Assembly: GCA_039028155.1 (NCBI GenBank)
Contig: JBCCIS010000019.1
Span: 1-64,000 of the forward strand
Source: Pseudomonadota bacterium
Lineage (GTDB): Bacteria; Pseudomonadota; Alphaproteobacteria; SP197
Length of the DNA: 64,000 nucleotides
Direction of reading: 5' to 3'
The position numbers were made by a program, and so were the translations under genes. Of the stretch, positions 5,545 through 41,936 are shown one piece after another. Under the pieces are notes generated by a model. That model saw only the letters and a program-made list of their open reading frames with translations. It ran no database searches and was not told the origin of the DNA. Every line of letters begins with the position of its first letter. Position 1 is the first letter of the stretch.

Positions 5545-6480
5545 CTAACGCATCGGGCTCGCCGCGCGAGCTGTTTCTATGAGCCAGTCGACGAAGGCAC
5601 AGACCTCCGGTCGTTTCGTCGCCTCTATTGTTGTTACGACGTCGAAACCGATGTCTGTCTCGACAGTGCTGTCCGCGAAGGGGCACACGAGAAGGCCGGC
5701 ATCCAGCGAGTCCGACAGGGTCGGCCAGCCTGCCAATATGACGCCCTGGCCTGAGGCGGCCGCCTGAACCGCCAATCCGTAGTCGCTGAACCGTTTGCCC
5801 CGCGATGTATCGACACCCTCGATACCGACATGCCGGAGCCACGCGTCCCACGAAAACCAACGCCGTGTCGCGTGCGCCCAGTGCATATGGGACGTATCCC
5901 AGTGAATGAGCGGAACGTCCCGTAGCTGATCCAGTGTCTCAAGCCGTGCCGGTCCCTTGGCAAATGCGGGACTGCACGCGGGAAAGACAAGATCCTCGAA
6001 CAGCCGCTTGGCGACGAGGTCCTCGTCCCGTGGAACGCCATAGCGAACGGCAACATCGACGTCGTTGCGCTTGAGGTCGTTGATCTTCTGGGACGCATCC
6101 ACCAGGACGTCGATGTCTGGATGTGTTGCCCAGAACGATCCGAGCCGGGGTGCGAGCCATGTTGTCGCGAGCGATGCCTCGACCGACACGATCAATCGTT
6201 TGTTCAGCCGAAACTGCCGCATCGTCTGAACGGACTGCGAAAGATGGCGCATGCCGAGCGCGGCGTCGTTCCGTGCGGCTTCGCCGACGGGAGTGAGCCC
6301 GAGGCTATGCCCCCTGCGTTCTATCAGCTTCAGATCGAGCGTCGCTTCCAGCTTGGCGACCAGGTGCTTGACCGCCCCGGGTGTCACCCGCAGTTCCTCG
6401 GCAGCGCCACGATAACTCAAGTGTCGGGAGACCACTTCGAAGGCCCTAAGGGCGTTTAACGAGGGAATCCAATCGTCCAT
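5545..6480 (-). CDS. LysR-family transcriptional regulator (GcvA-like)
   Basis: A 311-residue LTTR. The winged HTH spans about residues 5-65 (WIPSLNALRAFEVVSRHLSY, then AAEELRVTPGAVKHLVAKLE) and is followed by an effector domain with EASLATTWLAPRLGSFWATH. The N-terminal wording is that of the GcvA subgroup. The start at 6480 fits the HTH; an in-frame extension upstream adds a low-complexity basic segment and is not used. It is divergent from a GcvT-family gene, the classic layout for a LysR regulator and its target. An inverted repeat lies between the two. Confidence 0.9.
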   Translation of the reverse strand: MDDWIPSLNALRAFEVVSRHLSYRGAAEELRVTPGAVKHLVAKLEATLDLKLIERRGHSLGLTPVGEAARNDAALGMRHLSQSVQTMRQFRLNKRLIVSVEASLATTWLAPRLGSFWATHPDIDVLVDASQKINDLKRNDVDVAVRYGVPRDEDLVAKRLFEDLVFPACSPAFAKGPARLETLDQLRDVPLIHWDTSHMHWAHATRRWFSWDAWLRHVGIEGVDTSRGKRFSDYGLAVQAAASGQGVILAGWPTLSDSLDAGLLVCPFADSTVETDIGFDVVTTIEATKRPEVCAFVDWLIETARAASPMR

Positions 6481-6557
6481 AAAGTCAGTTTTTCTCAACT
6501 TTAGGCGCAGCTCAAGTCGTTTTGGCCTGGACGAGATTGGCACTAAGTAATGGCCTG

Positions 6558-6583
6558 GCGGATGAGTCGTACACATCATCCGC
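6558..6583. promoter_or_regulatory. inverted repeat GCGGATGA-N10-TCATCCGC
   Basis: Perfect 8-bp arms at 6558-6565 and 6576-6583 with a 10-bp spacer in the 183-bp gap between the LysR gene and the GcvT-like gene. It is about 80 bp from both start codons. The size fits a LysR recognition site, or a hairpin in the leader of the GcvT-like mRNA. Function is inferred from position. Confidence 0.4.
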
Positions 6584-6663
6584 AGGCAGATGGCGCAGAA
6601 AACTCAGCTTCGCGGCGGCGTTGTCGTACCGCCGGGCGACATGCGACGAGGAGGAAACTGGCG

Positions 6664-7854
6664 ATGCGATCAAGCGATGGCGAAACACGGGATCTCGTAA
6701 CATCGCGGCCCGGCGCGGGTTGGGATTTTGCCTTGGCCCGTCATCCCTACTTCGAGCATGAGCGCCCGCTGGGGCCGCACTACTGCGTCTACAACAGACG
6801 CCTGATGGTGGTTCACTTCGATCAACGCGATGTCGAGGACGGCTATTGGACCCTGCGCCAAAAGGTCGGCTTGCAGCACACCGGTGAATACGTTCTGCAG
6901 TTCAAGGGGCCGGATGCCGAGCGGCTTCTGGACAAACTCTTCACGCGCGACATCACCAAACAGAAAGTCGGGCGGTGCGGGTATGGGTTGGCCTGCTACG
7001 AAGACGGCGGAATGCTCGTCGATGGTATCGTGATGCGGCTCGACACCGATCGCTTTTGGTATGTCCAGGCCGATGGCGATTTCTACAGTTGGACCAGGGC
7101 GCACGCGATCGGCATGGACGTCAGCATCACCGATCCGGACGTCTTCGTGTCCCAGGTCCAGGGGCCGAACGCATTGGCCTTTCTGGAGGCCGCCAGCAAA
7201 GACGGCCTGCCGGAAGGCTTCACCTACTACGGCATTGCCCGGGTCGATCTGGGTGGCCAGGAATTCATCGTGACGCGCACCGGGTTTACCAACGAACTGG
7301 GATGGGAACTCTATACCGAACCCCATCACGATGCGGATGCGGTCTGGGAGCATTTGCGCACCCATGGAGAGCCCTTCGGTTTGGACTTCTATCCGGTCGA
7401 CTCGACCGACCCCCGGCGGATCGAGGCCGGCATCCTGAACGCCGGCTCGGATTTCAACACCACGACGACGCCGTATGACGTCGGTCTTGGGCGTTTCGTC
7501 GATGATAACAAGGGGGACTTCATCGGCAAGACGGCGCTCAAGGATGCGGCGAAAGGACAGCGCCTTCACGGCATCAAATGCCTGACCAGTGAAATGGTGG
7601 TTTCCGGTGTGGTCGAACAGGAAGGGCGACGTGTCGGCATCGTGACGGCGGCGGCCATGTCACCCTACCTTGGACACAGCGTCGGCTATGCCCTTCTCGA
7701 CACGGCCGACCTCGGCCCCGGCGCCAACGTCAGCGTCGGATGTCGCGATGGTTCCCTGCAGGAAGCCGAGCTGGTCGGGCTTCCCATGTACGACAAGGAG
7801 CGTGCCATCCCGCGCGGCAAGCTCGTCGATATCCCGACCAGACCCGGTCGCTAG
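6664..7854 (+). CDS. GcvT/DmdA-like tetrahydrofolate-dependent demethylase or aminomethyltransferase
   Basis: A 396-residue stand-alone GcvT-fold protein with no FAD domain. YNRRLMVVHFDQRDVEDGYW leads into the folate-binding barrel; RTGFTNELGWELY near residue 205 and RRIEAGILNAGSD near 256 are typical GcvT/DmdA segments. The protein is closer in layout to the DmdA/GcvT-like demethylase group (about 370-400 residues) than to glycine-cleavage GcvT, and no gcvH or gcvP is present. Family members move a methyl or methylene from a substrate to THF. The start at 6664 has a GAGGAGG site; upstream in-frame sequence is basic and unlike the family. Substrate is unknown; DMSP, betaine or another methylated compound are options. 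Confidence 0.8.
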   Translation: MRSSDGETRDLVTSRPGAGWDFALARHPYFEHERPLGPHYCVYNRRLMVVHFDQRDVEDGYWTLRQKVGLQHTGEYVLQFKGPDAERLLDKLFTRDITKQKVGRCGYGLACYEDGGMLVDGIVMRLDTDRFWYVQADGDFYSWTRAHAIGMDVSITDPDVFVSQVQGPNALAFLEAASKDGLPEGFTYYGIARVDLGGQEFIVTRTGFTNELGWELYTEPHHDADAVWEHLRTHGEPFGLDFYPVDSTDPRRIEAGILNAGSDFNTTTTPYDVGLGRFVDDNKGDFIGKTALKDAAKGQRLHGIKCLTSEMVVSGVVEQEGRRVGIVTAAAMSPYLGHSVGYALLDTADLGPGANVSVGCRDGSLQEAELVGLPMYDKERAIPRGKLVDIPTRPGR

Positions 7855-8047: not shown

Positions 8048-8941
8048 GTGGGTTCACCAGTGGAACACAACCCAGACTTTGCCAATGTCTACGCCAAGGT
8101 CAGCAACTGGCAGCAGATAAGAGGTCTCGAACTCCTCGAAGAAGCGACGCCTGAGAGCGGTGAGAGCGTCCTCGATATCGGCTGCGGGCCAGGCGAGCTC
8201 ACCGCCGAAATGGCGCGGCGCGTCGGACGCGACGGCCGGGCGTTCGGCATCGATCCGGACGCGGCCCGCATCGAACTGGCCAAGACGCGTTTCGGAACGG
8301 AACTACCGCAGTTAACGTTCGCGGTCGGACGCGGAGAAGCGATGCCAAAGGTGGCGAGCGGCTCCTTCGACCTCGTCTACTCGAACTATGCCATCCAATG
8401 GATCCGCGAGAAGGACCGGCTCTTGGAGGAGATCTGGCGTTGCCTCAAGCCCGGCGGCCGGATTGCCTTGGAGATGCCGGCCGCCACCACTGACGTGTTC
8501 GAGGAGGTGATGGCGATCGCCGTCGGCTGCAAGAAGAACCCCCTCGACTCCGTCTACTTTGTCGGCGAAAACGAATGGCTTCCGCTCTTGCGGGCACAGG
8601 GGTTCTCGATCCAGCGTTCCGAAAGCTTCTGTAACGCGATGCCCTTCGCCTCCGCCGAGGCCTTTTATGATTGGTGGGAGGGCACCACGCACGGCGCCTT
8701 CCAGCGCAGCCAGATCTCGGCGGATGAACGCCCCGGGTTTGAAGCGACCTTTGCCGGCGGCCGCACGGCGAATGTTCATTCGGTGCGCGTGCTTGGGACC
8801 AGGCCCGTCACCCAGCGCATTTTCCGTTTTCACGGAGTCGGTGCCGGCCCGCTCCCCCTCCTGGCCACCCCGAGGATGCTGCCATGGGTGGCCGGGTGGG
8901 GGAGCGGGCTGGTGATGCCGTTTGAACGGAAAATACGCTAG
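8048..8941 (+). CDS. class I SAM-dependent methyltransferase
   Basis: A 297-residue methyltransferase of the UbiE/trans-aconitate type. Motif I, VLDIGCGPGE, is near residue 43, the acidic loop after strand 2 is FGIDPDAAR, and the post-motif DLVYSNYAIQWI is characteristic. The start is either the GTG at 8048 or the GTG at 8060, which has GGTGGG upstream; both give a similar protein. The substrate is unknown. Its stop codon abuts the duplicated fragment of an M24 gene on the other strand. Confidence 0.85.
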   Translation: MGSPVEHNPDFANVYAKVSNWQQIRGLELLEEATPESGESVLDIGCGPGELTAEMARRVGRDGRAFGIDPDAARIELAKTRFGTELPQLTFAVGRGEAMPKVASGSFDLVYSNYAIQWIREKDRLLEEIWRCLKPGGRIALEMPAATTDVFEEVMAIAVGCKKNPLDSVYFVGENEWLPLLRAQGFSIQRSESFCNAMPFASAEAFYDWWEGTTHGAFQRSQISADERPGFEATFAGGRTANVHSVRVLGTRPVTQRIFRFHGVGAGPLPLLATPRMLPWVAGWGSGLVMPFERKIR

Positions 8942-9190
8942 TTCAACGAAACATCCTCATAGGGATAGGTCGACAGGCGCTGCAGGCCGTTCTCCGTCAT
9001 CAAAAACCTGCTCCTCCAGCTTGACGCCTTCGACGCCGTCCTCGACGCCGATATAGCTCTCGACGCAGATCGTCATGCCGGGATCGAACGAAAACGCCGA
9101 ACTTTCCGATGTGTTGTCACTGAACGACACGTGCGGGTACTCGTCGCACAACCCGACACCGTGGGCCAAGACACCGTAGCGGCGCGCGTT
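8938..9190 (-). pseudogene. truncated, frameshifted copy of the 3' end of the M24 gene
   Basis: This 253-bp segment matches 10348-10599 with about eleven substitutions and one inserted A (CAAAAACC here, CAAAACC in the intact gene). It covers the last ~83 codons, from NARRYGVLAHGVGLCDEYPH to the stop. The insertion changes the frame after KLEEQV, and homology ends abruptly at 9190, so it cannot make a functional enzyme. It is in the same orientation as the intact gene 1.4 kb away and flanks an APH-like gene. It is a remnant of a partial duplication. Confidence 0.9.
8938..9190. repeat. direct repeat, copy A (about 252 bp, about 95% identical)
   Basis: Left copy of a direct repeat whose right copy is the 3' end of the M24 gene at 10348-10599. 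Both begin with the CTA of the reverse-strand stop codon and end at the GCGCGCGTT of codon 335. Recombination between the copies would delete 1.4 kb including the APH-like gene. Confidence 0.9.
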
Positions 9191-9350
9191 GGAGCTCATA
9201 TACACACCCGAAGGCACGATCTGCTGTGCGAAGTCGCCCTTCAAAACGATCGAAACCCATCTAGATTGAGGTGCAACGCAGACAGCCTGAAGGTCATGAA
9301 CATTCAAATCAGAGGATTGATGGCCTCGTGGGCCTCAAGCGAACGGCAGC

Positions 9351-10190
9351 ATGAACCGTACTCAACTGCGTCAAATGGGCTTTGAACTCGACGCTCGCGC
9401 ACTTGGTGGCAGATCTCAGGGCGCGTGGTTCGCGACGGCGTCCAACGGTTCACCCGTCGTCCTCAAATGGTCTCCTGACGAGACGATGGTCGAATGGTAT
9501 GCTGCCCTACTCCCTGGGCTTGATGAGCTCCGCGCGCGCGGTGTACCGGTGCCCGTGTACGTGCATGTGGGCGCTTTCGACGGTGGCACGCTCTCCGCAC
9601 AGCAGTTCCTGCCTGGCCGGTCGGCGGACAACCCGTCGGCGGCGGTCGTCGAGTCAATGGTCGATTGCATCACTGCCAAGGCCGGCATCGCAGGGCCGCT
9701 ACCAGCGACCGATCAGCGTACGTGGGGCACGTTTGTCGTCCACACGTTGAGAGGCGGCCAGGATGACCAGGCGATGCATCAACCGCTGCGCACCTGCGAT
9801 CAGCGCACTACGGCCGTACTCGATCGCGTCGAGGCTATTGGTGCCAATGTCGACCCAAGCTGTTTCCCCAACGACGGACTGGTTCACAACGACTTACACA
9901 CCGACAACGTCCTCATCGACGATGGGGCGCTCTCTGGCATTGTCGACTGGGAGGAAGCGTGCGCAGGCGACCATCTGTTCGACCTCGTCGCATTCGCCTT
10001 CGACCTCGACGGTCATAACCAGCCGATCTGGGACATCGTCGATTCTGCGGGCTTCGAGCCACAGGTGCTGCGCGCCTACGTCGCACTTCTAACGCTGAGA
10101 TGCACCGCCTCGGCGATCCTTCACCACCCAGAGGACGTGGCGCGCCAGCTCGATCGTGCCAAGCGGGTCTTCGCTCGCTACGAAGTCTAA
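9351..10190 (+). CDS. aminoglycoside-phosphotransferase-fold kinase
   Basis: A 279-residue protein with the APH/choline-kinase fold. The Brenner motif HNDLHTDNVLIDDG starts at residue 179 (catalytic Asp181, Asn186) and the metal-binding Asp199 sits in IVDWEEA. VVLKWSPDE near residue 36 supplies the ATP-binding Lys. Members phosphorylate small alcohols or sugars as well as antibiotics, so nothing here proves resistance. It lies between the two direct-repeat copies and no gene continues its strand. Flanking DNA has a slightly lower GC and reads as recently rearranged. Confidence 0.8.
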   Translation: MNRTQLRQMGFELDARALGGRSQGAWFATASNGSPVVLKWSPDETMVEWYAALLPGLDELRARGVPVPVYVHVGAFDGGTLSAQQFLPGRSADNPSAAVVESMVDCITAKAGIAGPLPATDQRTWGTFVVHTLRGGQDDQAMHQPLRTCDQRTTAVLDRVEAIGANVDPSCFPNDGLVHNDLHTDNVLIDDGALSGIVDWEEACAGDHLFDLVAFAFDLDGHNQPIWDIVDSAGFEPQVLRAYVALLTLRCTASAILHHPEDVARQLDRAKRVFARYEV

Positions 10191-10347: not shown

Positions 10348-10599
10348 CTAGTTCAACAGAACATCCTCATAGGGATAGGTCGACAGGCGCTGCAGGCCGT
10401 TCTCCGTCATCAAAACCTGCTCCTCCAGCTTGACGCCTTCGACGCCGTCCTCGGCGCCGATATAGCTCTCGACGCAGATCGTCATGCCGGGGTCGAAGCT
10501 GAAGGCCGAACTTTCCGATGCGTTGTCACTGAACGACACGTGCGGGTATTCGTCGCACAACCCGACACCGTGGGCCAAGACACCGTAGCGGCGCGCGTT
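10348..10599. repeat. direct repeat, copy B (inside the M24 gene)
   Basis: Right copy of the direct repeat described at 8938-9190. It is the intact 3' end of the M24 gene and is therefore the likely source of copy A. Confidence 0.9.
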
Positions 10600-11601
10600 G
10601 AACTCGTTGGGGATCTTCCAGGACTTCTCGGCGATCTCCACGAAGCTCATGCCGGGCTTCATGATGTCCATGTTGTAGTGCACCTGATCATAGGCGTAGC
10701 GATAGAGGCGCTTCTGCTCGTCGCTCGGTTTGCCGGGTCCGCAGAACCAGGTGCGGCTGATGTCGGAGCAATAGCCGAACGGGCCGATCAGGTCGGTGTC
10801 AAAGGCCACGAGTTCGCCGGCGCGGATGATGCGGTCGCTGCATTCGCGGAACCACGGGTTGGTGCGCCCGCCGGACGCCAGGAGACGCGTCTCGATCCAC
10901 TCGCCGCCGCGGGCAATGTTGACCTGGTGCAGGTGCGACCACAGCTCGTTCTCGGTGATGCCGGCGTGCATCTCCTCGTACATCTTCGCCATGCCGGCCT
11001 CGCACACCGAGATCGCGATGGTCATGGCGGCGATCTCGTCGGGCGACTTGATGGCGCGGGCGAGCTCCATGACCTGCTGGCCGTTATGGATCTCGTATCC
11101 CAGCTTTTCGATCTCCTTGGCGCCCGCGGGATCAAGGTGGTCGGCGGCGATGCGTTTATTGCCGTCGCCCATGGATTGGCGGATCGCGTCATCCATGTCC
11201 TGGGCCCACAGGTGCGCCTTTTCCGCGTACCGCTCGTCGGCGCCGAAGTAGGTCCAGCCAATGCACGGGCGGATCTCGCCGATCGTCTCCAGATGTTCGG
11301 ACAAGTGCATGGAGGCCTTGTATTCGAACAGGATCGTCGGGCCTTCCGCCGGCACAAAGCAGTAGCGCGCCTGGTTGTGCAGGATCCAGACCTGCATGTT
11401 GCTGGAGCCGTTGGCGTATCGCACGTTGATGGGGTCATAGAGAATGACGCCGGCCAGATCGCGCTTCTTCAACTGCTCCTGCACGCGGCCGAGGCGATAG
11501 GCCCGCATGCGCTTGATGTCGATCTGCGGTTCGGCATCGTGCTGGGCGATGCCCGGGGTGTTGCGTCCCAGGCGAATCGCGTCGAGGGGTACGTCGTTCA
11601 T
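10348..11601 (-). CDS. M24 metallopeptidase-fold enzyme, DddP-like
   Basis: A 417-residue pita-bread protein with an N-terminal creatinase-like domain (to ~185) and a C-terminal metal domain. All five M24 metal ligands are present: Asp268 and Asp280 with Asp270 between them (FDTDLIG...CSDISR), His344, Glu378 and Glu393. The Asp-x-Asp-x9-Asp and His344-x5-Asp350 spacings equal those described for the DMSP lyase DddP, and HGVGLCDEYP resembles DddP. Creatinase lacks these metal ligands, so it is unlikely. The start at 11601 follows a GGGAG site. It lies 67 bp after etfB on the same strand, so it is probably co-transcribed with the dgc operon. An Xaa-Pro peptidase role remains possible. Confidence 0.8.
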   Translation of the reverse strand: MNDVPLDAIRLGRNTPGIAQHDAEPQIDIKRMRAYRLGRVQEQLKKRDLAGVILYDPINVRYANGSSNMQVWILHNQARYCFVPAEGPTILFEYKASMHLSEHLETIGEIRPCIGWTYFGADERYAEKAHLWAQDMDDAIRQSMGDGNKRIAADHLDPAGAKEIEKLGYEIHNGQQVMELARAIKSPDEIAAMTIAISVCEAGMAKMYEEMHAGITENELWSHLHQVNIARGGEWIETRLLASGGRTNPWFRECSDRIIRAGELVAFDTDLIGPFGYCSDISRTWFCGPGKPSDEQKRLYRYAYDQVHYNMDIMKPGMSFVEIAEKSWKIPNEFNARRYGVLAHGVGLCDEYPHVSFSDNASESSAFSFDPGMTICVESYIGAEDGVEGVKLEEQVLMTENGLQRLSTYPYEDVLLN

Positions 11602-11668
11602 GTTAACTCCCGGCGGCGGCCAACGGCCGTGTTGTGGCGCCCATGGGAATAGCGGACGAGGCCGGGTG

Positions 11669-12472
11669 TCAATCGGGAACGGCTGGCGGCGCCGACTTTT
11701 TTTGCTCTTCGTCGGGCCGAACAACGCCTTCGCGTGTCAGATAATCAAGGATTGCCCGAGCGGCCTCATCAGCCTCGGGATGGTCCAGAAGCTCGGCGCG
11801 CCCCTGCACCATCTGTGTCGCCGCCCGCATGCGATCGGCAGCACTGCCGTCGCCGACAATTTTTAGCCGCCGAGGTTTGGGCCGGGCGGCCTGCCAATGG
11901 CCGTCAATGGCATAGGGCGTGCTCTCACATGGCACCGTCTCGATCGTGCCGCGCCGCGCCTGCGCGAAAGCGACCGGCGCCGGATCGGGCGCCGCCGACG
12001 ACACGGTGACGATGGCGTTGCGCGGCGCGCCGACCTTGCGGCGCCGCCCACCCGCCAAGCCTTGCGCAATCTCGACCCGCTCACCGCCGAACGACAAGCC
12101 GGCGGCGCCTGGGACCAATGGCCGGCCCGAACGCTCGGCGAGTAGATAGGGCACCATGCCGCTCGCCTCGCCCTGCTCGGCCCGCTCGCCCGCCAGCACC
12201 AAGGCGCCCGGACGGGTCTCCAGATAGGCCAGCAAGGGCGGCACGATGTCGTCGCCGCTCGCAATCGTTAGGACAGACATCCGCGCGACACCCATGCCCA
12301 GATAGTCGCGCAGCGCCGGTTCGGCATCGCTGCCGGCATGAATCAGATCGATGCTGACGTCCCGCAGCGACCGCGCCAGGGTGACGGCACGAGCATCGAG
12401 CAGCGCGCGGCGCGCCCTGGCCGACACCGGATGGCGGCCAAGTGAGACGAGCACGATGACCTGGTCAGTCAC
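11669..12472 (-). CDS. etfB: electron transfer flavoprotein beta-type subunit of the dgc operon
   Basis: A 267-residue EtfB-like protein: an N-terminal segment reading IVLVSLGRHPVSARARRALL, a middle part typical of ETF beta with VLAGERAEQGEASGMVPYLL, and a C-terminal tail. It is divergent from housekeeping EtfB, as are the ETF genes that accompany dimethylglycine demethylase. With the preceding etfA it should accept electrons from DgcA/DgcB or pass them to quinone. It overlaps etfA by 4 bp. Confidence 0.8.
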   Translation of the reverse strand: MTDQVIVLVSLGRHPVSARARRALLDARAVTLARSLRDVSIDLIHAGSDAEPALRDYLGMGVARMSVLTIASGDDIVPPLLAYLETRPGALVLAGERAEQGEASGMVPYLLAERSGRPLVPGAAGLSFGGERVEIAQGLAGGRRRKVGAPRNAIVTVSSAAPDPAPVAFAQARRGTIETVPCESTPYAIDGHWQAARPKPRRLKIVGDGSAADRMRAATQMVQGRAELLDHPEADEAARAILDYLTREGVVRPDEEQKKSAPPAVPD

Positions 12473-13626
12473 GAAACCTCACCCCTGACGCGGGCGGCAA
12501 GCGCCGGCATGACAAGTTGGGCGTCCTGGATGATCGCGAGGTCGGCGCGTTTCACCATGTCGGCATGCAGGTCGGTGTTGATGGCGACCACGCGTTCACA
12601 CCGCTCGATGCCCTGCAGATGTTGAGGCGCGCCGGCTATACCAAAGGCGAGGTAACAGCGTGGTTCGACAAGCGTGCCTGACGCACCGACCTGGCGATCG
12701 CGCGGCAGCTGGCCGGTATCGCAAACGACACGGCTGCCGCCCTCGACAGCGCCCAGCGCGGCGGCGACGTCGTGAAACGCGGCCCAGTCGGTGACACCGT
12801 TGCCGGCGGAAACAATGAAGTCGGCCTCGGCCAGGGCGACGGCGCTTGTGTCGATCGGCATCGCGCCGTCGTCGTCCAGGCGTGACGCGACCGTGATCTC
12901 CGGCGCGTCCAGGCTGCGCGCTTCATGCGCGGGACCGCGATGGGGTTCGCCGGTTTCCGGCATCAACAGCATGACATCGCCCGGCGTGCGGACGATGTCG
13001 CGGACACCGCCATCGGCGCGGCAAGAGATGCTGTCCGCCTCGATCGCGAAAACACGCGCCGCGACCCGGAGACCGCGCGCGGCGGCCCGACGCCGCGCGA
13101 CATCGCCCGCGCCAATAGGCGTTTCGGGCGCCAGGACGTGGCGCGGCCGAAGTATGTCGACCAGCGCGCCAGCCATCGCCGCCATCCTCTCGGGCTCGTA
13201 AGAGGACGGGCTTGTGCCACCCTTCACCGCGCGGTCAACCCCGGCAGCACCCAGTTCCTCGTGCACGGCCGGCGCCAACACGACGACGCCGCCATCGCCG
13301 TCGCGATCGGCCAAGCCGCGCGCCGCGCCCAGGACATCGCGGTCGTGAGGTGACAGGCGGCCATCCGGCATGTCGGCGAGGACCAGGACCCAGAACGCCG
13401 GGTCCTCGATAACTTTGACTGACGGAGCGACACCGTCGCGCGCAGTCTTTGCCGCGCTCGGCCTGGCTGCCGCGACCAGTCCCCGTCGCGCATCGCGTTC
13501 GGCACGGGGATCGCGGCGCACCAACCGGCCGGTCTCGCCCGCCTCCGCAGACACGGGCTCCGCCAGATCGCCGCCACGTCGCGCGTTGCGTTCGGCGCGT
13601 GGGTCTCGGCGCTTGCGCGTGGTCAT
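12469..13626 (-). CDS. etfA: electron transfer flavoprotein alpha-type subunit of the dgc operon
   Basis: A 385-residue EtfA-like protein. The C-terminal FAD domain has the expected DRQVGASGTLVEPRCYLAFG, then GAPQHLQGIERCERVVAINT. The N-terminus carries a basic extension in which RRDPRAERxARRG occurs twice, near residues 6 and 37, a feature outside the ETF fold proper. It overlaps dgcB by 4 bp and etfB by 4 bp, so all four genes are translated from one transcript. It forms a dedicated ETF for demethylation, separate from the general fatty-acid ETF. Confidence 0.85.
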   Translation of the reverse strand: MTTRKRRDPRAERNARRGGDLAEPVSAEAGETGRLVRRDPRAERDARRGLVAAARPSAAKTARDGVAPSVKVIEDPAFWVLVLADMPDGRLSPHDRDVLGAARGLADRDGDGGVVVLAPAVHEELGAAGVDRAVKGGTSPSSYEPERMAAMAGALVDILRPRHVLAPETPIGAGDVARRRAAARGLRVAARVFAIEADSISCRADGGVRDIVRTPGDVMLLMPETGEPHRGPAHEARSLDAPEITVASRLDDDGAMPIDTSAVALAEADFIVSAGNGVTDWAAFHDVAAALGAVEGGSRVVCDTGQLPRDRQVGASGTLVEPRCYLAFGIAGAPQHLQGIERCERVVAINTDLHADMVKRADLAIIQDAQLVMPALAARVRGEVS

Positions 13627-15548
13627 GGGTCGACCGCCTCAAGCAGCAGCTCGGCGACATCGACGACCTGGGGCCGTGGCTCTACGACGCCTTCCAGCAT
13701 CTGCATGCAGCCCGGACAAGAGACCGCCACGCGCTCGGCGCCGGTCTCGCGTGCCTGCTCCATGCGCAGGTCAGGGATCCGCGCCTTACCGGGGATATCG
13801 GTGACCGGCGCACCGCCGCCACCACCGCAACAGAACGAGCGCAGGCCGGAACGTGTCATCTCGCGGCGCTCCAGACCGAGCGCGTCGATCAGGCCGCGCG
13901 GCGCATCGACCTCGCCGTTGTAGCGGCCGAGATAACAGGGGTCATGATAGGTGACACTGCCTTCGCGGACGCCCGACACGGTCAGCCGATTCTCGGCGAC
14001 CAGACGCGACAGAAGTTGCGTGTGGTGCAACACCTCGTAGTGCCCGCCAAACTCGGGATACTCGTTCTTCAGACAATGAAGCACATGGGGATCGGCGGTG
14101 ACGATCCGCTCGATGCCGAGCCGGTCCAGCGTCGCGATGTTCTCCGTTGCGAGGCGCTGAAACGTCGCCTCGTCGCCCAAGCGCCGGGAGAGATCGCCGC
14201 ACTCCTTTTCGTCATCACCCAGTACGACGAAATCCACGCGTGCCTTGCGCAAGAGTTTGACGAACGCACGAAGGGTCCGCTGATTGCGTCGGTCATAGGC
14301 GCCGTCGCCAAGCCACAAGAGCCAGTCGACGGCCTTGACCTCGCGCGCAAGACGCAGGTCCAGGTCGCTCGCCCAATCGAGCCGCTCACCAAGCGCGCGG
14401 CCACCAGGATTGTCGGCAAGCCGGGTTTCTTCCAGCGTTTCGGGCCCGCGTCCAGGCACCCTGCCCTCCTCCAACGTCAGGAAGCGGCGCAGGTCGACCA
14501 TGGCATCGACATGCTCGATCATCATCGGACATTCATAGACGCAGGCGCGGCACGTCGTGCAGGCCCAGATCGTCGACTCAGGCACCAGATTGTCGGCGAT
14601 CAATCCACCGGCGCCATGCCGGCGCGCGCCCAACGCGATGCCCGGATAAGGCTGGCCCGTGTACATCACATCGTTGGCGTTGCGGCTGGTACCCGCGACC
14701 AGATCCTGGATGAACTTCTTGGGCGTCAGCGGCTGGCCGGCGGCAAATGCCGGACACGCCGCCTCGCACCGACCGCACGAGACACAGGCGTCGAAACCCA
14801 GCAACTGGTTCCACGCGAACTCACCGATCGTGCCGACGCCGAGCGGCCCCTTCTCCAGATCGACCGGCTTGAGCGCGGCGTCCGGCGTCTTGCTCCTGAA
14901 GCGCGCCTGGCGCGGATGCCAGCCCAGATGCAGCGCACCCGCGACGGCATGGCGCATGGGACCGTAGGCGGCGAAAGCGATAAGTTCGGCCAAGACCCAG
15001 ATGGTGAGGAGCAGCACAACGGTACCGACGAATACCGCGCCAGTGACATTCCAGATCGGGGTATCAGCGCCCAGTACCGACGCAGCGTACAACACGGCAA
15101 ACGCCAGAATGGCGTAGGGCAAACGGTTCCATGCGCCGCCCGATAGACGGGCCGGTTTCGCCGGCCGTCGCCGTCGCAGAACAAGCACGCCCCCGACAGC
15201 CATGCCCGCAAGCGCAACGAGCAACAGGTAGCTCGGAATGTCAGTCGCCCAGTCGAACAACAACACGGCGGGGATCAAGATGAGTGCAGCCACAAATCCC
15301 GCCGCCGTCGGCACGTGCATACGCGCGGCATACCGGTCACGGGCAACGACATGGTGAACGTCGACAAGATAACGTCGCGGAATCGTCCACAGACCGCCGC
15401 CGGTCAGCGATGGACGCCCGCGACGCCAGCGCCTTGCGCGCAGGCCGATGGCCACCACCCCGATCAACCCGGCCAGTACGAAGAGAACGGCCAGCCAATG
15501 ATAAACCAGGTACGCGACCCAACCGACGTCGAGAGAACCGTCAGACAT
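13623..15548 (-). CDS. dgcB: membrane-anchored Fe-S oxidoreductase of dimethylglycine catabolism
   Basis: A 641-residue protein with about five N-terminal membrane helices (within residues 12-192), then a 2x[4Fe-4S] ferredoxin-type region (C255VSCGRCEAACP and CTTCRACVYECP near 335-345). Two CCG domains follow, with DPCYLG and SFCCGGGG and a final VSCPGCMQ. This is the heterodisulfide-reductase-D-like layout of DgcB, which hands electrons to the membrane pool. The ATG at 15548 overlaps the dgcA stop by 8 bp; a GTG directly precedes it. The order dgcA-dgcB-etfA-etfB matches the pseudomonad dimethylglycine operon. Confidence 0.9.
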   Translation of the reverse strand: MSDGSLDVGWVAYLVYHWLAVLFVLAGLIGVVAIGLRARRWRRGRPSLTGGGLWTIPRRYLVDVHHVVARDRYAARMHVPTAAGFVAALILIPAVLLFDWATDIPSYLLLVALAGMAVGGVLVLRRRRPAKPARLSGGAWNRLPYAILAFAVLYAASVLGADTPIWNVTGAVFVGTVVLLLTIWVLAELIAFAAYGPMRHAVAGALHLGWHPRQARFRSKTPDAALKPVDLEKGPLGVGTIGEFAWNQLLGFDACVSCGRCEAACPAFAAGQPLTPKKFIQDLVAGTSRNANDVMYTGQPYPGIALGARRHGAGGLIADNLVPESTIWACTTCRACVYECPMMIEHVDAMVDLRRFLTLEEGRVPGRGPETLEETRLADNPGGRALGERLDWASDLDLRLAREVKAVDWLLWLGDGAYDRRNQRTLRAFVKLLRKARVDFVVLGDDEKECGDLSRRLGDEATFQRLATENIATLDRLGIERIVTADPHVLHCLKNEYPEFGGHYEVLHHTQLLSRLVAENRLTVSGVREGSVTYHDPCYLGRYNGEVDAPRGLIDALGLERREMTRSGLRSFCCGGGGGAPVTDIPGKARIPDLRMEQARETGAERVAVSCPGCMQMLEGVVEPRPQVVDVAELLLEAVDP

Positions 15549-17583
15549 CACGCATCAAGCGACGGGCGTCGTAGAGGGCGGCGTGGATGTTGCGTCCGGC
15601 AACGCAGTCGCCGATGCGGAACAGTTGGAAACGTCCGGTCTCCTGGTTGACGATTGCCTGGGGCCTGCCCTCGATCAGCGCGTCGAGATCGACCTCGCCC
15701 AGATTCGACGAGTACGGTTTGAGCGCGAAGTAGAGATCATCGACCGGCAGCGTACCGTGTTCGGCGACAACCTGGTCGACCAGGCGCTCTTCCTCCTGCA
15801 ACGAGAATGGGTTGCGCAACGTGGCGCGCAGCTTGTTGCCGTCACGCCGGATCGCGGTCAGCCGCAGGTTGGGCGACATGACAACACCGAGGCGATACAT
15901 CTCCGCCAGATGAACCGAAAAGTTCGTCGAGCCCATTTCCTCCGCCACCATGCGATCAGGCGTCGCAAGCTCGACCTGGGCGCCGCGCGTTGCCATGAAC
16001 TGGGCGACGCTCGGCCCCTGGTGCTGGCCGTTGTCGTCGTGCAGCAGAACGTTTTCGCCGGGCTCGACCGTTCCCTCGAGAACATCCCAGGCCGACACCG
16101 CGAGATCGTCGCCGCCAAACAGGCCCTTGTTGGGCAGGCCGCCGGTCGCGACGACGACCAGGTCAGGCTCGTCCGCCTCGACCACCTCGGACGTCGCCGC
16201 CGTGTTCAAGCGGATGTCGATGGGCTTCTTCTCGACCTGCTGGGCCAGCCAACGCGTAATGCCGGAAAGGTTCTCTCGCCACCCCGCGCGGGCCGCCAGG
16301 TTGACCTGGCCGCCTAGCCGGTCGGTCTTTTCGTAGAGAACGACATCGTGGCCGCGTTCGGCCGCCGCGCGCGCGGCCTCCATGCCGGCAACGCCGCCAC
16401 CGGCAACGACTATGCGCCGCTTGCTTTCGGCCTTGGGCAACACGTGGGGCAGGTTCTGCTCGCGTCCAGTCGACGGGTTCTGGATACACAAGGCATCGCC
16501 GCCGACATAGATGCGATCGATGCAGTAGTTGGCGCCGACGCATTGGCGCACATCGTCAACCCGGTCCTCCGACAGTTTCTTCATCAGATGAGGGTCGGCC
16601 ATGTGGGCGCGGGTCATGGCGATCATGTCAACATGGCCTTCGGCCACCGCCCGGTCAGCGGTCGCCAGATCGGCGATGCGCCCGGCGTGGAACACGGTGA
16701 TGTCGCAGGCCTGTTTGACCGCGCTGGGTAGATAGAGAAACGACGCCGGCGGATACGCCATGTTGGGGATCATGACGGCCAGCGCGTGGTGGGTTTCGGT
16801 GTTGCCGTGCATGACGTTCATGACGTCGACCAGGCCGCTATCGGCATAACGCTTCAGGACCCCGATCATCTCCTCTTGGGCGAGACCGCCGTCGAGCAAC
16901 GAGTCGCCGGTGACGCGCAGGCAGATGATGAAGTCGTCGCCAACCGCGCGCCGCACCTCCTGCATGACGAGATGACCGAAGCGTTCGCGGTTCTTCAGGC
17001 TGCCGCCCCATTCGTCGTCACGCAGGTTGTTCGACGGCGTCAGGAACTGTTCGACCAGGTGGGAGGCGTCGAACATCATCTCGACACCGTCCAGGCCGCC
17101 CTCCTTGCATCGCGCCGCGGCCTTGCCGAATGCCTTGATGATCCGCTCGATATCGAAGTCTTCGATCTCCTTGGCAAAGGCGCGATGGGCGGGTTCGCGC
17201 ATCTGGGTCGGCGCGACCAGCGGCAGCCAGTCGGCGGTGTCCCATCGGTTGCGTTTCCCCATATGCGTGATCTGGCACATGATCGCCGCGCCCTCGTCGT
17301 GCACGCGCCGCGAGAATTCCTGGAAGTACGGAATGACCCGGTCCTCACTGACCGAGATCTGGCCGAACGCCTCGGCTGAGCTGTCCGGCGCGACCGACGC
17401 CGAGCCGCCGAACATGGTGAGCCCGATGCCGCCCTTGGCCTTTTCCAGGTGATAACGTTGGTACCGCTCGCCCGGCATGCCGGCATCCGCATAGGCCGGC
17501 GCGTGGCTCGTGCTCATGACCCGGTTGCGGATCGTGAGGTTCTTGATCGTCAGCGGTTTGAGCAGCGCCTCGAACTGTGCCAT
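15541..17583 (-). CDS. dgcA: FMN/FAD/Fe-S N-demethylase, DgcA-like (copy 1)
   Basis: A 680-residue enzyme of the trimethylamine-dehydrogenase/2,4-dienoyl-CoA-reductase family: an old-yellow-enzyme FMN barrel (residues 1-~345), an Fe-S region, and a C-terminal FAD/NAD(P) Rossmann half starting RRIVVAGGGVAGMEAA near 389. In DgcA the reaction is oxidative demethylation of dimethylglycine to sarcosine plus formaldehyde. The Fe-S motif is C348-x2-A351-x2-C354-x11-C366: the second ligand of the canonical set is Ala. It is the first gene of the operon, divergent from a GFA gene. Stachydrine or other dimethylated amines are alternative substrates. Confidence 0.88.
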   Translation of the reverse strand: MAQFEALLKPLTIKNLTIRNRVMSTSHAPAYADAGMPGERYQRYHLEKAKGGIGLTMFGGSASVAPDSSAEAFGQISVSEDRVIPYFQEFSRRVHDEGAAIMCQITHMGKRNRWDTADWLPLVAPTQMREPAHRAFAKEIEDFDIERIIKAFGKAAARCKEGGLDGVEMMFDASHLVEQFLTPSNNLRDDEWGGSLKNRERFGHLVMQEVRRAVGDDFIICLRVTGDSLLDGGLAQEEMIGVLKRYADSGLVDVMNVMHGNTETHHALAVMIPNMAYPPASFLYLPSAVKQACDITVFHAGRIADLATADRAVAEGHVDMIAMTRAHMADPHLMKKLSEDRVDDVRQCVGANYCIDRIYVGGDALCIQNPSTGREQNLPHVLPKAESKRRIVVAGGGVAGMEAARAAAERGHDVVLYEKTDRLGGQVNLAARAGWRENLSGITRWLAQQVEKKPIDIRLNTAATSEVVEADEPDLVVVATGGLPNKGLFGGDDLAVSAWDVLEGTVEPGENVLLHDDNGQHQGPSVAQFMATRGAQVELATPDRMVAEEMGSTNFSVHLAEMYRLGVVMSPNLRLTAIRRDGNKLRATLRNPFSLQEEERLVDQVVAEHGTLPVDDLYFALKPYSSNLGEVDLDALIEGRPQAIVNQETGRFQLFRIGDCVAGRNIHAALYDARRLMRDV

Positions 17584-22455: not shown

Positions 22456-23763
22456 ATGAGTAGTAAGATGGCGGCATCGTCCGGGGCGGCGGCCGCGCGC
22501 AAAAGCCGGGTGACGCCGAAGACGGTGTTCGCCTGCGCCATCGGCAATATCCTGGAATGGTACGATTTCACCGCCTACGGTTTTCTGGCGACGATCATCG
22601 GCGCCAGCTTCTTTCCGTCCGGCGACAGCTTCGCGTCGGTACTCGCAGCGTTCGGCGCGCTTGCCGCCGGTTACGGCGCGCGACCGCTGGGCAGCATTAT
22701 CGGCGGCCACCTGGGCGACCGGATCGGGCGCAAACCGACCATGATCCTGTGCATGGCAAGCATAAACATCTCGACGTTTTTGTTGGGCTTGTTGCCCACC
22801 TATGAGCAGATCGGCGTGATGGCCGCGGTCCTGCTTGTGGCGATCCGTCTCGTCCAGGGCCTGTCGGTAGCGGGCGAATACAGCTCGTCCTCGGTTCTGC
22901 TGGTCGAGAACGCCGAACCCCGCCGGCGCGGTTTTGTCGGCACCTGGATTGCCTGCGCCATGATGGCCGGCTGCCTGCTGGGCTCCGGCATGGCAGCGCT
23001 CTCCAGCGCGGTAGTCGGCGACGAGGCCATGAAGGAATGGGGCTGGCGCATCCCGTTCCTGTTCGGCGGCGTCATCGCCATCATCGGCATCATCATTCGC
23101 CGTCGCCTCACTGAGTCCGCGGCCATGCCGGGCGAAGACGAGATCCTCGCCATCCCCATCGTCAGCGCGTTCAGGGATCACTGGCGCACGATCGTCACGA
23201 TCATCGGCATCAACATGCCGATTTCGGTCAGCTACTTCGTTCTCTTCGTCTATGCCGTTTCCTACCTGACCGACCAGATGCACTTCACGACGGCCCAGGC
23301 GATGGACATCAACACGGTCAGCCTGATCGCCATGACCGTGCTGATCCCGTTCACCGGCCTTGCCGCGGACCGTTTTGGCCGCAAGGCCGTGCTCTACGTC
23401 TCGCTGCTCGGCACGATCGTCGCCGGCTGGCCCGCCTGGTACCTCATGCACACGCCGGAGCTTGGCCTTGTCCTGGTCGGCCAGATGGTGCTCGCCTGCT
23501 TGAGTGCTGCGGGCTGGGCGTTGTCGGTTCCGTTGATGGTCGAGTTGCTGCCCGCCAAGGTGCGCTGCACCGGCGGCGGCCTCGGCTACAACATTTGCCT
23601 CGCCCTGTTCGGCGGCACGACACCGCTGATCGCCGCCTATCTGGTCGAGCGCACCGGCGACGATTTCACGCCGATCTATTACATCATGATCGCCGCCGCG
23701 ATCGCCCTCTTCTTCACCTGGCGCATGCCGGAGATGGCGGGCAGAGACCTACCGAAGGATTAA
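22456..23763 (+). CDS. MFS transporter, metabolite:H+ symporter (ProP-like) family
   Basis: A 435-residue twelve-helix permease. The MHS hallmarks are ACAIGNILEWYDFTAYGF near residue 26, ARPLGSIIGGHLGDRIGRKP in loop 2-3 near 76, and RLVQGLSVAGEYSSSSVLLV near 132. Members import compounds such as proline, glycine betaine, citrate or shikimate with protons. Its stop overlaps convergently with that of a DMGDH-like gene, and the neighbourhood of N-methyl catabolism makes a methylated amine or betaine a reasonable substrate guess. Confidence 0.9.
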   Translation: MSSKMAASSGAAAARKSRVTPKTVFACAIGNILEWYDFTAYGFLATIIGASFFPSGDSFASVLAAFGALAAGYGARPLGSIIGGHLGDRIGRKPTMILCMASINISTFLLGLLPTYEQIGVMAAVLLVAIRLVQGLSVAGEYSSSSVLLVENAEPRRRGFVGTWIACAMMAGCLLGSGMAALSSAVVGDEAMKEWGWRIPFLFGGVIAIIGIIIRRRLTESAAMPGEDEILAIPIVSAFRDHWRTIVTIIGINMPISVSYFVLFVYAVSYLTDQMHFTTAQAMDINTVSLIAMTVLIPFTGLAADRFGRKAVLYVSLLGTIVAGWPAWYLMHTPELGLVLVGQMVLACLSAAGWALSVPLMVELLPAKVRCTGGGLGYNICLALFGGTTPLIAAYLVERTGDDFTPIYYIMIAAAIALFFTWRMPEMAGRDLPKD

Positions 23764-26195
23764 GCCCGCAGCTTTTCGTTCTCCGGATCGAACGGCGATT
23801 CCTCGATGATCGTCACCCGGTGGCTGGTGCCCAGGATATCCATCTGGAGGTCGGTGCCGATCTCCGCGTGTTCCGGGCGCACCATGCCGAGCGCCAGCGA
23901 CTTGCCGAGGCGGAAACCGAAACCGCCGGATGTCGCGCGGCCCACGACCTCGCCGTTGAGTGAGATCGGGTTGTTGCCGAGAGGATCGGCATCGGTGACG
24001 TCGTGCACCTCCATGGTGACGAACTGGTTCTGGAAGCCCCTCTCCTGCCACTGCGAGAGCGCGTCGCGGCCGATGAACTCACCCTTGTTCAGATGCACGA
24101 AGCGATGCAGGCCGGATTCAAGCGCGGCGTACTCGATCGAGAGCTCCTGGCCGACCATGCGGTAGGATTTTTCGATGCGCATGGCTTCCATGGCGCGAAT
24201 GCCGAAGGGTTTGATGCCCAGATCCTCGCCCGCCGCCATGACGGCGTCGAAGATGTGGTTCTGATACTCCAGCGGATGGTGCAGCTCCCAACCGAGCTCG
24301 CCGACAAAGTTCATGCGCAAGGCAAGCGTCGGCGCCAGACCGACATCGATCCAGCGGCCCGACAACCACTTGAAGCTATCGCCGGAGAGGTCGTCGCGGG
24401 TGATGCTCTGCAGCAGCTCGCGCGATTTCGGACCGGCGACGACCAGGACGCCCATCTGGTTGGTCAGATGATCGAAACGGACCGAACCGTCGGTCGGCAT
24501 GTGTTTCTTCAGCCAGTCGTGGTCGAGGCGCTGGAGCGCGCCGGCCGAGACGACATAGAACGAGTCGTCTGCCTCACGCATGATCGTGTATTCCGAATGC
24601 ACGCCGCCGCGCGTGTTGAGCGCGTGGACCAGGCCGACGCGGCCGATCTTCTTCGGCAGCCGGTTGGCGATCAGGCCATCCAGGAAGGCTTCGGCGCCCG
24701 GGCCTGAGATACGGCACTTGGCGAACGCGGTCATATCCAGAATGCCGACGTTTTCGTGAACGTTGCGCACCTCGTTGCCGACATGCTCGAACCACTTCGA
24801 ACGGCGGAACGACCAGTCGTCTTCCTGGGGCACGCCGGCAGGCGCGAACCAGTTGGCGCGCTCCCAGCCGAACTTCTGGCCGAACACGGCACCCAGCCCT
24901 TTCAGGCGGTCGTAGCAAGGCGCCTGACGCAATGGGCGTGCGGCCTCGCGCTCCTCGTCGGGGTAATGGATGGTGAAGACGTTGGCGTAGGCCTCCTCGT
25001 TCTTTTCGACGAGGTAGGACTTCGTGCAGTAGTCGCCGAAGCGGCGGGGATCGACGCCCAGCATGTCGATGGTGGGCTCGCCCTCGACCATCCATTCGGC
25101 GAGCTGCCAGCCGGCGCCGCCGGCCGCGGTGATGCCAAAGCTGTGGCCTTCGTTGAGCCAGAAGTTGGGCAGATCCCAGGCCGGGCCGATAATCGGGCTT
25201 CCGTCGGGCGTATAACAGATGGCGCCGTTATAGACCTGCTTGACGCCAACCTCGCCGAACGCGGGCACGCGGTTGATGGCGGATTCGATATGCGGCTCCA
25301 GCCGTTCCAGGTCTTCCTGGAAGAGTTCGTACTCCATGTCGTCGGACGGACCGTCGACATAACAGGCGGGCGCGCCCTTTTCATACGGCCCCAGGATCAG
25401 GCCGCCGCGTTCCTCGCGCATGTACCAGGAACCGTCGGACTCGCGCAGCACACCCATTTCGGGCAGACCGTCGGCCTTGCGCTTCTGGATGTCGGGATGC
25501 GGCTCGGTAACGATGTACTGGTGCTCGACCGGAATGACCGGCACGTCGAGGCCGACCATGGCGCCGACCTGACGCGCGAAGCTGCCGGAGGCCGTCACCA
25601 CGTGCTCGCATGTGATGTCGCCCTTGTCGGTCTTGACCAGCCATTCGCCGGCGGGCGTACGCTCGATGCCGGTCACGGTGGTGTTGCGATAGATTTCGGC
25701 GCCGTTGTTGCGCGCGCCGATGGCAAGCGCCTGGGTCAGGTCAGCCGGTTGGATGTAACCGTCTTCGGGGTGCTGAATCGCACCCACCAACCCGTCGGTG
25801 TTGCACAGCGGCCAGACCTCCTTGATTTGATCGGGGGTCAGGAACTTCACCTCGACGCCGATGGTGTCGGCGACGCCGGCATACTGGCGGTACTCGTCCA
25901 TACGCGCCTGGTTCATGGCGAGCCGGATGTTGGAGACCTTGGCGAAGCCGACGCGTTGGCCGGTCTCCTCCTCAAGCTCCTGATAGAAGCGCACGGCGAA
26001 CTTGTGCACCTGGCCGACCGAGTAGCTCATGTTGAACAGCGGCAGGAGGCCCGCGGCGTGCCAGGTCGAGCCGGACGTCAGCTCCTTGCGTTCGACCAGA
26101 ACGACATCGGACCAGCCCTTCTTGGCCAGGTGATAGAGGGTACCGACGCCGACAACGCCGCCACCGATAACAACGACCCGTGCATGGCTCTTCAT
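23760..26195 (-). CDS. dimethylglycine/sarcosine dehydrogenase-like flavoprotein with GcvT domain
   Basis: An 811-residue two-module enzyme. The N-terminal DAO-type FAD domain begins VVVIGGGVVGVGTLYHLAKK, and GSTWHAAGL carries His46, the equivalent of the histidine that binds FAD covalently in DMGDH and SARDH. The C-terminal ~400 residues are a GcvT folate domain (FVGELGWELHHP near 615). Known members oxidise an N-methyl group and pass the methylene to THF. The start at 26195 fits the Rossmann strand. It is tail-to-tail with the MHS transporter. Dimethylglycine, sarcosine or a related N-methyl amino acid are possible substrates. Confidence 0.9.
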   Translation of the reverse strand: MKSHARVVVIGGGVVGVGTLYHLAKKGWSDVVLVERKELTSGSTWHAAGLLPLFNMSYSVGQVHKFAVRFYQELEEETGQRVGFAKVSNIRLAMNQARMDEYRQYAGVADTIGVEVKFLTPDQIKEVWPLCNTDGLVGAIQHPEDGYIQPADLTQALAIGARNNGAEIYRNTTVTGIERTPAGEWLVKTDKGDITCEHVVTASGSFARQVGAMVGLDVPVIPVEHQYIVTEPHPDIQKRKADGLPEMGVLRESDGSWYMREERGGLILGPYEKGAPACYVDGPSDDMEYELFQEDLERLEPHIESAINRVPAFGEVGVKQVYNGAICYTPDGSPIIGPAWDLPNFWLNEGHSFGITAAGGAGWQLAEWMVEGEPTIDMLGVDPRRFGDYCTKSYLVEKNEEAYANVFTIHYPDEEREAARPLRQAPCYDRLKGLGAVFGQKFGWERANWFAPAGVPQEDDWSFRRSKWFEHVGNEVRNVHENVGILDMTAFAKCRISGPGAEAFLDGLIANRLPKKIGRVGLVHALNTRGGVHSEYTIMREADDSFYVVSAGALQRLDHDWLKKHMPTDGSVRFDHLTNQMGVLVVAGPKSRELLQSITRDDLSGDSFKWLSGRWIDVGLAPTLALRMNFVGELGWELHHPLEYQNHIFDAVMAAGEDLGIKPFGIRAMEAMRIEKSYRMVGQELSIEYAALESGLHRFVHLNKGEFIGRDALSQWQERGFQNQFVTMEVHDVTDADPLGNNPISLNGEVVGRATSGGFGFRLGKSLALGMVRPEHAEIGTDLQMDILGTSHRVTIIEESPFDPENEKLRA

Positions 26196-26452
26196 GAATG
26201 CCTCTCCCCTGCACCGCCCGCTTTGGCGCGGTTGGTCCTGTCGTAACAAAAGCCAGGGCGCTTCACTAGCGTCCGCCAAGGCCCGCCATTGTCACGCAGG
26301 CGACACCGACTGTGCGTGTGCCGTCATGACGGCGCCGATTCGGCGGCGAGACGAGCCCCGCCTGCAAAAGCGCCGCTGTGTGACCGCCATCCTGGCCTGG
26401 AGCACGCGGAAGTCGCATAATCGTGGGTGATTGCGATCTTAGGGAGTAGGCC

Positions 26453-40454: not shown

Positions 40455-40467
40455 CGAAACGACGTCC

Positions 40468-41769
40468 CTAGCGCGCGACGCGGTCGCGGTATTGGTAGTA
40501 GCGCTGCACGATCGGCAGGAACCAGGGATTGCCGTCGTAGAACGGTATGGTCGGGAACGCCAACCCCTCGAACGCGCATTCGGCTTCCGGCGTGCCCAGA
40601 ATGCGCTGCGCGGTCTTGTAGCCCAGATAGGTCTGCTTCACGACGCCGGACCCGTTGCAGGCGAGCGCGAAGTGCAGGCCGTCCTTCACGCCGGTATGCG
40701 GCAGCTTGTCGAAGGCAAAGGCGACGTTGCCGGTCCAGCTATGCGTCACCTTGACGTCCTTCAGCTCCGGAAAGACGCCGGTCATGAAGTCGTGCAGAAC
40801 CTTGCCGCTTTCCCGCGTCTCGACATCGCGGGTCTTGGCGCGGCCGCCGAAGATGACGCGCTTGCGGTCCGGCGACGGGCGGTAATAGTAGAGGATCTTC
40901 TTCGTGTCGGCGATCATACGGTGATTGGGGAACAGCCGGTTCATGGTCTCGTCCGGCAGTTCCTCAGTCGCGATGATATAGCTGCCGACCGGCACCAGGC
41001 GTCGGCGGAACTCCTGGGTCGCGCGCGGGGTGTAGCCGTTGGTCATCACGGCGACCTCTTTCGCCTTGACCGTGCCGCGGGAAGTCTTGACGTCAAAACC
41101 ATCGCCGTCGCGGCTGATGCGCTCGACCGGCGTGTGCGCCGCCAGCTTGACTCCGGCCGCCATCACGCGGTCCAGGAACTCCTGATGGTAGACCGCCGGA
41201 TGCAGACCGCCACCCGACAGCGTTACCTTGCCGCCGTGATAGATGTCGGTCGCGACTTCGTTCGCCACATCGCTCTTGGGGATCATGTAGCCGGTGTCGA
41301 TGCCGACTTCCTTTTTCACCAGTTCGGCGTCACGGGCCATGGATTCGTAGTGGCTGGTCGCGTGGGCGCCGACGAAACGCCCGACCTTCTGGTAGTGGCA
41401 CTGGATCTGCTCGGACGCGATGAACTCGTCGAAGAATGTCATCGCATTGTCACCTTCGCGGACCAGGGCGGCGGCCTTCGTCTGACCGTACTTGGCCTTC
41501 AGCTCGCCATAGCCGAGTTTCAGCCCGCCGCCGGCCATGCCGCCGCTGCGCGAGCTGGCGCCGTGGCCGGGGTCGCTGGCTTCCAGGATCAGGACATCGC
41601 GCCCGGCGCGCGCCAGGTAGAGCGCAGCCGACATGCCGGCATAGCCGGAGCCGACGACCGCCACGTCGACGGCCCGGGGCAAGGGGATCGGGACAAACTC
41701 TGGCCGGGGTGCTGCTTCCCACCAATAGGGCGTTGCCTTCCACTCGTCAGCAAACGGTGCCTCGGCCAT
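40468..41769 (-). CDS. DadA/PuuB-like FAD-dependent amine oxidoreductase
   Basis: A 433-residue DAO-fold flavoprotein: VDVAVVGSGYAGMSAALYLA near residue 36 is the dinucleotide-binding motif, and ASSRSGGMAGGGLKLGYGEL the typical following segment of gamma-glutamylputrescine oxidase and related secondary-amine oxidases. The C-terminal half ends with LACNGSGVVKQTYLGY. It should oxidise a secondary amine or N-methyl amino acid to imine. GGAGGAC precedes the ATG at 41769. It starts the minus-strand cluster and is divergent from the MttB-family gene, 167 bp away. Confidence 0.87.
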   Translation of the reverse strand: MAEAPFADEWKATPYWWEAAPRPEFVPIPLPRAVDVAVVGSGYAGMSAALYLARAGRDVLILEASDPGHGASSRSGGMAGGGLKLGYGELKAKYGQTKAAALVREGDNAMTFFDEFIASEQIQCHYQKVGRFVGAHATSHYESMARDAELVKKEVGIDTGYMIPKSDVANEVATDIYHGGKVTLSGGGLHPAVYHQEFLDRVMAAGVKLAAHTPVERISRDGDGFDVKTSRGTVKAKEVAVMTNGYTPRATQEFRRRLVPVGSYIIATEELPDETMNRLFPNHRMIADTKKILYYYRPSPDRKRVIFGGRAKTRDVETRESGKVLHDFMTGVFPELKDVKVTHSWTGNVAFAFDKLPHTGVKDGLHFALACNGSGVVKQTYLGYKTAQRILGTPEAECAFEGLAFPTIPFYDGNPWFLPIVQRYYQYRDRVAR

Positions 41770-41936
41770 GGGTGTCCTCCCGCGTTTCAATGCAACGTAC
41801 CGCTTTCATGCCGCTGACGACAAGACGGGCGAACCCGACCAAAGACGACCTTGGCCTCGTCGTCGGCGACGGAAACTGGCCGTATTGCCGTCCGGGCGCG
41901 TGCCATAAGCTGCCGCAGGCCCAAGGAGGCAGGACC

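Follow-up and report, generated by a model that had tools for sequence, protein, structure and literature searches.

A DddP-like M24 metalloenzyme gene closing a dgcAB-etfAB operon in an alphaproteobacterium, with a probable role in betaine metabolism

Introduction

In ocean surveys, dddP is reportedly the most frequent of the bacterial DMSP-lyase genes, making up about 65% of ddd genes (PMC10686828). One study called homologues at 40% identity and 70% coverage (PMC6309047). DddP has the two-domain architecture of the M24B family. Its metals are bound by three Asp, one His and two Glu residues, a further Asp is the proposed base, a Trp and a Tyr hold the substrate sulfur, and both of the catalytic His residues of the peptidases are reported to be lost (PMC4108388; PMC5395565).

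The DgcAB-EtfAB operons described in Pseudomonas, Vibrio and Azospirillum share the order dgcA-dgcB-etfA-etfB and have pepD or proVW as neighbours, with no M24 gene; in V. natriegens and P. aeruginosa, it is the predicted dipeptidase gene pepD that lies upstream of dgcAB-fixAB (PMC12093977). The rhizobial HpbA/EtfBA proline-betaine operons combine a TMADH-family N-demethylase and an ETF with a DMSP-lyase-like protein encoded in or next to the operon. Here, we analyze a dgcAB-etfAB operon that ends with a DddP-like M24 gene, an association with N-demethylase operons for which we found no report in the open-access literature.

Results

The window, a 64,000-nucleotide stretch of an alphaproteobacterial contig, contains on its minus strand, from 17583 to 10348, the genes dgcA-dgcB-etfA-etfB-M24. 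Gene calls bore out the sequence-only reading, which had placed the M24 gene behind the other four on the same strand after a 67-bp gap. The dgcA gene (15541-17583) encodes a TMADH/OYE-family N-demethylase flavoprotein 61% identical to that of Azospirillum oryzae, with HpbA (N-methylproline demethylase) next-closest at about 48%. The dgcB product (13623-15551; DUF3483, 4Fe-4S and CCG domains) is 55% identical to its A. oryzae counterpart and is the sole DUF3483 protein of the genome. The etfA gene (12469-13626) is of the electron transfer flavoprotein alpha subunit type (47% to Azospirillum etfA), and etfB (11669-12472) encodes the ETF beta subunit of the DgcAB system (NF051844, 235 bits vs 245 bits for the Azospirillum counterpart). 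With a DgcA flavoprotein, a DUF3483 Fe-S DgcB and an atypical ETF pair in the right order, this is a genuine DgcAB-ETF set, with the domain content of the described operons. The A. oryzae cluster, of glycine-betaine type, also contains a glycine-betaine binding protein, Rieske and reductase genes, a GlxA-type regulator and proV/proW, and the M24 gene is absent from the Azospirillum dgcAB-etfAB clusters. Given the 61% identity to the DgcA of that cluster, dimethylglycine is the likely DgcA substrate.

The first four genes overlap (dgcA/dgcB by 11 bp, dgcB/etfA and etfA/etfB by 4 bp each), and the M24 gene (10348-11601), the last of the operon, follows a 67-bp gap (11602-11668) that ends in GGGAG-TTAAC-ATG, that is, with a Shine-Dalgarno-like site before the ATG. 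No promoter-like or terminator-like matches were found in this gap, and its predicted RNA fold is nothing out of the ordinary (z = -0.07). We infer co-transcription of the M24 gene with etfB. An alternative in-frame TTG start at 11724, which would lengthen the protein and overlap etfB, is less likely than the ATG. Comparison of the two genomes of the genus gives dN/dS values of 0.029 for the M24 gene vs 0.204 and 0.198 for etfA and etfB, showing that it is under much stronger purifying constraint than these neighbours. A 254-bp duplicate of the M24 3' end, 95% identical and an incomplete gene, lies at 8938..9191 on the minus strand; between it and the M24 gene, an APH-type phosphotransferase gene occupies the opposite strand (9351-10190), an insert absent from the other genome of the genus (G001).

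The 417-aa M24 protein carries Asp268, Asp270, Asp280, His344, Asp350, Glu378 and Glu393, which align one to one with D295, D297, D307, H371, D377, E406 and E421 of RlDddP, whereas W72 and Y339 match the substrate-binding W95 and Y366. Thus, all six metal ligands (three Asp, one His and two Glu), the catalytic Asp and the Trp/Tyr pair of DddP are in place, in agreement with the earlier claim of DddP-type metal residues including the Asp of the proposed base. The best solved relatives are the DddP structures (4RZY, 342 bits, E = 4e-101), so the residue match is far above chance. In the alignment to Pyrococcus prolidase 1PV9, both catalytic His are replaced, by Phe251 and Asp350. Together with the DddP-type ligands, base, Trp and Tyr, these replacements, which are those reported for DddP, mark the active site as one of the DddP type rather than the prolidase type.

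However, as judged from the alignments, the seven residues are not diagnostic, that is, they do not separate DMSP lyases from other DddP-like members, because they are near-invariant across the whole DddP-like group. In a 38-protein alignment, six of the seven are invariant and Asp350 is near-invariant; among 107 sequences, the metal ligands are kept in 105-107 and Asp377 (RlDddP numbering) in 92; and the same residues occur in proteins from the proline-betaine clusters of legume symbionts.

The loss of both His residues bears on the possibility that the protein is an imidodipeptidase or amidase that frees N-methyl amino acids, for instance from X-sarcosine bonds, for the demethylases, in a role like that of pepD in the dgcAB clusters of Pseudomonas and Vibrio. 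Prolidases and Xaa-Pro aminopeptidases share with the M24 protein the M24B fold and five metal-ligand positions, prolidases are its best non-DddP structural relatives, and, as noted above, V. natriegens and P. aeruginosa have pepD ahead of their dgcAB-fixAB genes (PMC12093977). Nevertheless, the PepQ model gives only 76.5 vs 630 bits, and RlDddP, with the same His changes, is inactive on Val-Pro (PMC5395565). We therefore consider this activity quite unlikely; with both catalytic His gone, the protein is, by its sequence, not a prolidase, and placement among prolidases, the outcome that would have counted against the DddP-like assignment, did not occur. Identification as a creatinase or as the ectoine hydrolase DoeA was also ruled out by low scores (38 bits against creatine amidinohydrolase 7YTO; 33-42 bits vs cut-offs of 575-613 for the DoeA models).

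Compared with DddP (RlDddP, 4RZY; RdDddP, 4B28), the M24 protein has the same two-domain architecture, residue set and loss of peptidase His but differs in several respects. It is 40.8% identical to RlDddP, is encoded in an N-demethylase operon and scores 418.7 bits on the NCBIfam DddP equivalog model NF043017, below the cut-off of 600, with a match that begins at model position 50 and leaves N-terminal positions 1-49 uncovered. Across 289 alphaproteobacterial genomes, matches to this model fall into two groups, one at 490-900 bits, with more of the N-terminus covered (850-900 for roseobacter-type proteins and 490-630 for other members of the DddP clade), and one at 340-440 bits, whose matches mostly begin around position 50; the curated cut-off is reached in six of the 47 genomes with a strong match. 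In a 50-protein maximum-likelihood tree, in which the only published DddPs with activity proven or nearly so are the two solved proteins and the root is uncertain owing to the distant outgroup, the 490-900-bit group and both solved DddPs form one clade (97/87), with the M24 protein outside. Forcing it into that clade was rejected (log-likelihood 161 lower, AU p = 0.0002), and a wider 88-protein tree agrees with its exclusion. Thus, by sequence comparison, the M24 protein lies outside DddP proper.

These results weigh against a working DMSP (or DMSOP) lyase, in which Asp350 would drive beta-elimination of imported DMSP and DgcAB would deal with the betaines taken up alongside. Every known catalytic residue of DddP is kept, and the protein is 51% identical to Oceanisphaera DddP, itself over the DddP cut-off (626 bits). 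Moreover, the genome encodes one true DmdA (607.6 bits), so DMSP is probably encountered. Against this stand the sub-cut-off score, the unmatched model N-terminus, the exclusion from the DddP clade and the fact that terrestrial proline-betaine clusters encode proteins with identical residues; furthermore, the best AcuI match in the genome reaches 112 bits, short of the 297-bit cut-off. Altogether, a DMSP lyase appears fairly unlikely. Accordingly, the interpretation offered by the sequence-only reading holds in part: the option of DMSP cleavage next to betaine use finds no support, whereas related C-N/C-S chemistry on a methylated ammonium compound stays the best reading, with added support from the recurrent demethylase neighbours described below.

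Genes of the wide DddP-like sister group, in which the metal signature is near-invariant, are often found beside Rieske, MttB, DMGDH-like, BHMT or DgcB/ETF genes. The M24 gene adjoins DMGDH-like, MttB and sarcosine oxidase genes in Parasedimentitalea; sarcosine oxidase, DMGDH-like, BHMT, MttB and mandelate-racemase-family genes in Terrarubrum; Rieske, reductase, 4-hydroxyproline epimerase and glycine-betaine/proline ABC transporter genes in Rhizobium; Rieske and hybrid-cluster reductase genes in Caballeronia; and DMGDH-like, MttB, isochorismatase and glycine-betaine ABC transporter genes in S. meliloti. Among loci with >12 kb of flank, 23 of 56 DddP-like loci have a marker gene no more than 9 kb away, vs one of 14 for DddP (Fisher p = 0.025), and 16 of 49 (p = 0.09) once the orthologue group of the M24 protein is removed. 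The marker panel was partly built from the tested loci and the relatives are not independent, so this enrichment is supportive only. About half of the DddP-like loci have no marker gene.

The operon might also be the product of a passenger effect, with the M24 gene an old resident of the locus beside which dgcAB-etfAB arrived or moved in this genus, without a common pathway. Most relatives within the family have two M24 orthologues in tandem, close to MttB, DMGDH-like and zinc-uptake genes, with NicO/DUF1007-type genes also nearby and no dgcAB; therefore, the operon link is specific to a few genera. The gap before M24 is, in addition, the widest in the operon. Conversely, the etfAB-M24 order is kept in G001, where the contig ends inside etfA; a separate lineage (G005) has DMGDH-like, dgcB, etfA, etfB and M24 genes in a single run; and wider demethylase links recur in other orders. 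We thus regard a mere passenger as unlikely. In the window, a DMGDH-like DAO-GCV_T fusion gene (23760..26279, minus strand; 839 aa) has orthologues near the M24 orthologues of relatives. The tandem pair in these relatives adjoins genes for a zinc transporter of the AztABC type and for a Zur-like regulator (L063, 12649-15893, and counterparts); a betaine ABC transporter at this place was considered and rejected, the transporter being of the zinc type.

The epimerase and racemase genes among the neighbours raise a further alternative, namely alpha-proton chemistry without cleavage, such as racemization or epimerization of a chiral betaine. The proposed DddP mechanism does begin with removal of the alpha-proton by Asp (PMC5395565), and some relatives lie near hydroxyproline epimerase and mandelate-racemase-family genes. 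Yet dimethylglycine and glycine betaine are achiral and dedicated epimerase genes are already present, which makes this alternative highly improbable.

The rhizobial proline-betaine operons differ from the present one in that their in-operon DMSP-lyase-like gene encodes a cupin, whereas the M24 gene belongs, in many strains, to the adjacent Rieske unit. The cupin-type protein, annotated as DMSP lyase, lies within the hpbA-etfBA operon and has homologues in 221 plasmid records. In R. johnstonii 3841, the operon (pRL12, 563849-568984) comprises an hpbA-like gene, the cupin 'DMSP lyase', etfB, etfA, a second cupin annotated as 'DMSP lyase family' and formaldehyde-oxidation genes. The otherwise complete proline-betaine cluster of this strain is missing the M24 gene, leaving a 47-bp gap between the reductase and GlxA genes, where sister strains carry M24; therefore, M24 is not essential there. 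Rhizobium sp. T136 has its M24 gene directly adjoining a cupin-containing operon of the hpbA-etfBA type. Thus, two unrelated DMSP-lyase folds, the cupin there and M24 here, have relatives in N-demethylase/ETF operons. R. leguminosarum J391 is presumably linked to strain 3841. The failure of J391 on DMSOP (PMC10686828) was considered as a sign that the M24 protein is inactive on this compound, an idea that was dropped, 3841 being without M24 at the locus. The genome studied here encodes a cupin with a Pfam DMSP_lyase match beyond the window end, near TMADH/OYE-family flavoprotein genes (contig C19, 66983-67636; 70.7 bits), and another on contig C15 (34963-35424; 103 bits).

Enzymes for methylated compounds are strongly expanded in the genome, with 15 MttB homologues, 39 mostly weak Rieske matches and, besides the true DmdA, further matches to the GCV_T-type DmdA model (20 in total). 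The genome has no GbcA match that reaches the cut-off of 670 bits, the highest score being 330. Within the window, a GCV_T protein (6550-7854) scores 178 bits on the DmdA model vs a cut-off of 410 and so is not DmdA; its gene has a LysR gene (5545-6579) in divergent orientation beside it. The region 38415-43508 encodes another DgcA-like protein, which shares 59% identity with the first, together with a DAO oxidoreductase and an MttB homologue that is divergent. A nitrile hydratase alpha subunit is encoded at 45594-46277 (TIGR01323, 291 bits, over the cut-off). A sarcosine oxidase alpha-type gene lies at 52167-55169, so that later pathway steps may share the window.

Discussion

We consider that the M24 protein probably belongs to betaine metabolism and does not produce a sulfur gas. 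More specifically, it could well be, with about even confidence on our part, a DddP-like metalloenzyme of a betaine pathway, with an N-methylated ammonium zwitterion as its substrate. This reading is based on the operon layout, the full set of DddP-type residues, the exclusion from DddP, the loss of the prolidase His, the strong purifying selection and the repeated finding of DddP-like M24 genes next to genes for N-demethylases.

In the mechanism we propose, the protein would be an M24B enzyme with two metals, probably both iron, from a DddP-like group separate from DddP proper, made together with DgcAB and its ETF during catabolism of a betaine-type compound. The metals would bind the carboxylate of the N-methylated zwitterion, the aromatic W72 and Y339 would bind the onium group, and Asp350 would then accept a proton, as proposed for DddP, leading to cleavage by beta-elimination or a related break of a C-N or C-heteroatom bond. 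The cleavage product or its partner would then pass to the demethylases.

More tentatively, the DddP-like M24 proteins could be unrecognized enzymes of betaine catabolism that apply DddP-type metal and carbanion chemistry to ammonium compounds, with DddP possibly having arisen within this group through a change of substrate from an ammonium to a sulfonium betaine. The thresholds of 40% identity and 70% coverage are passed by 35 of 87 sampled DddP-like proteins, including the M24 protein. If the DddP-like proteins do not cleave DMSP, counts of dddP made by such thresholds would be inflated, and the group may hold a missing step of betaine breakdown as well as the ancestry of DddP.
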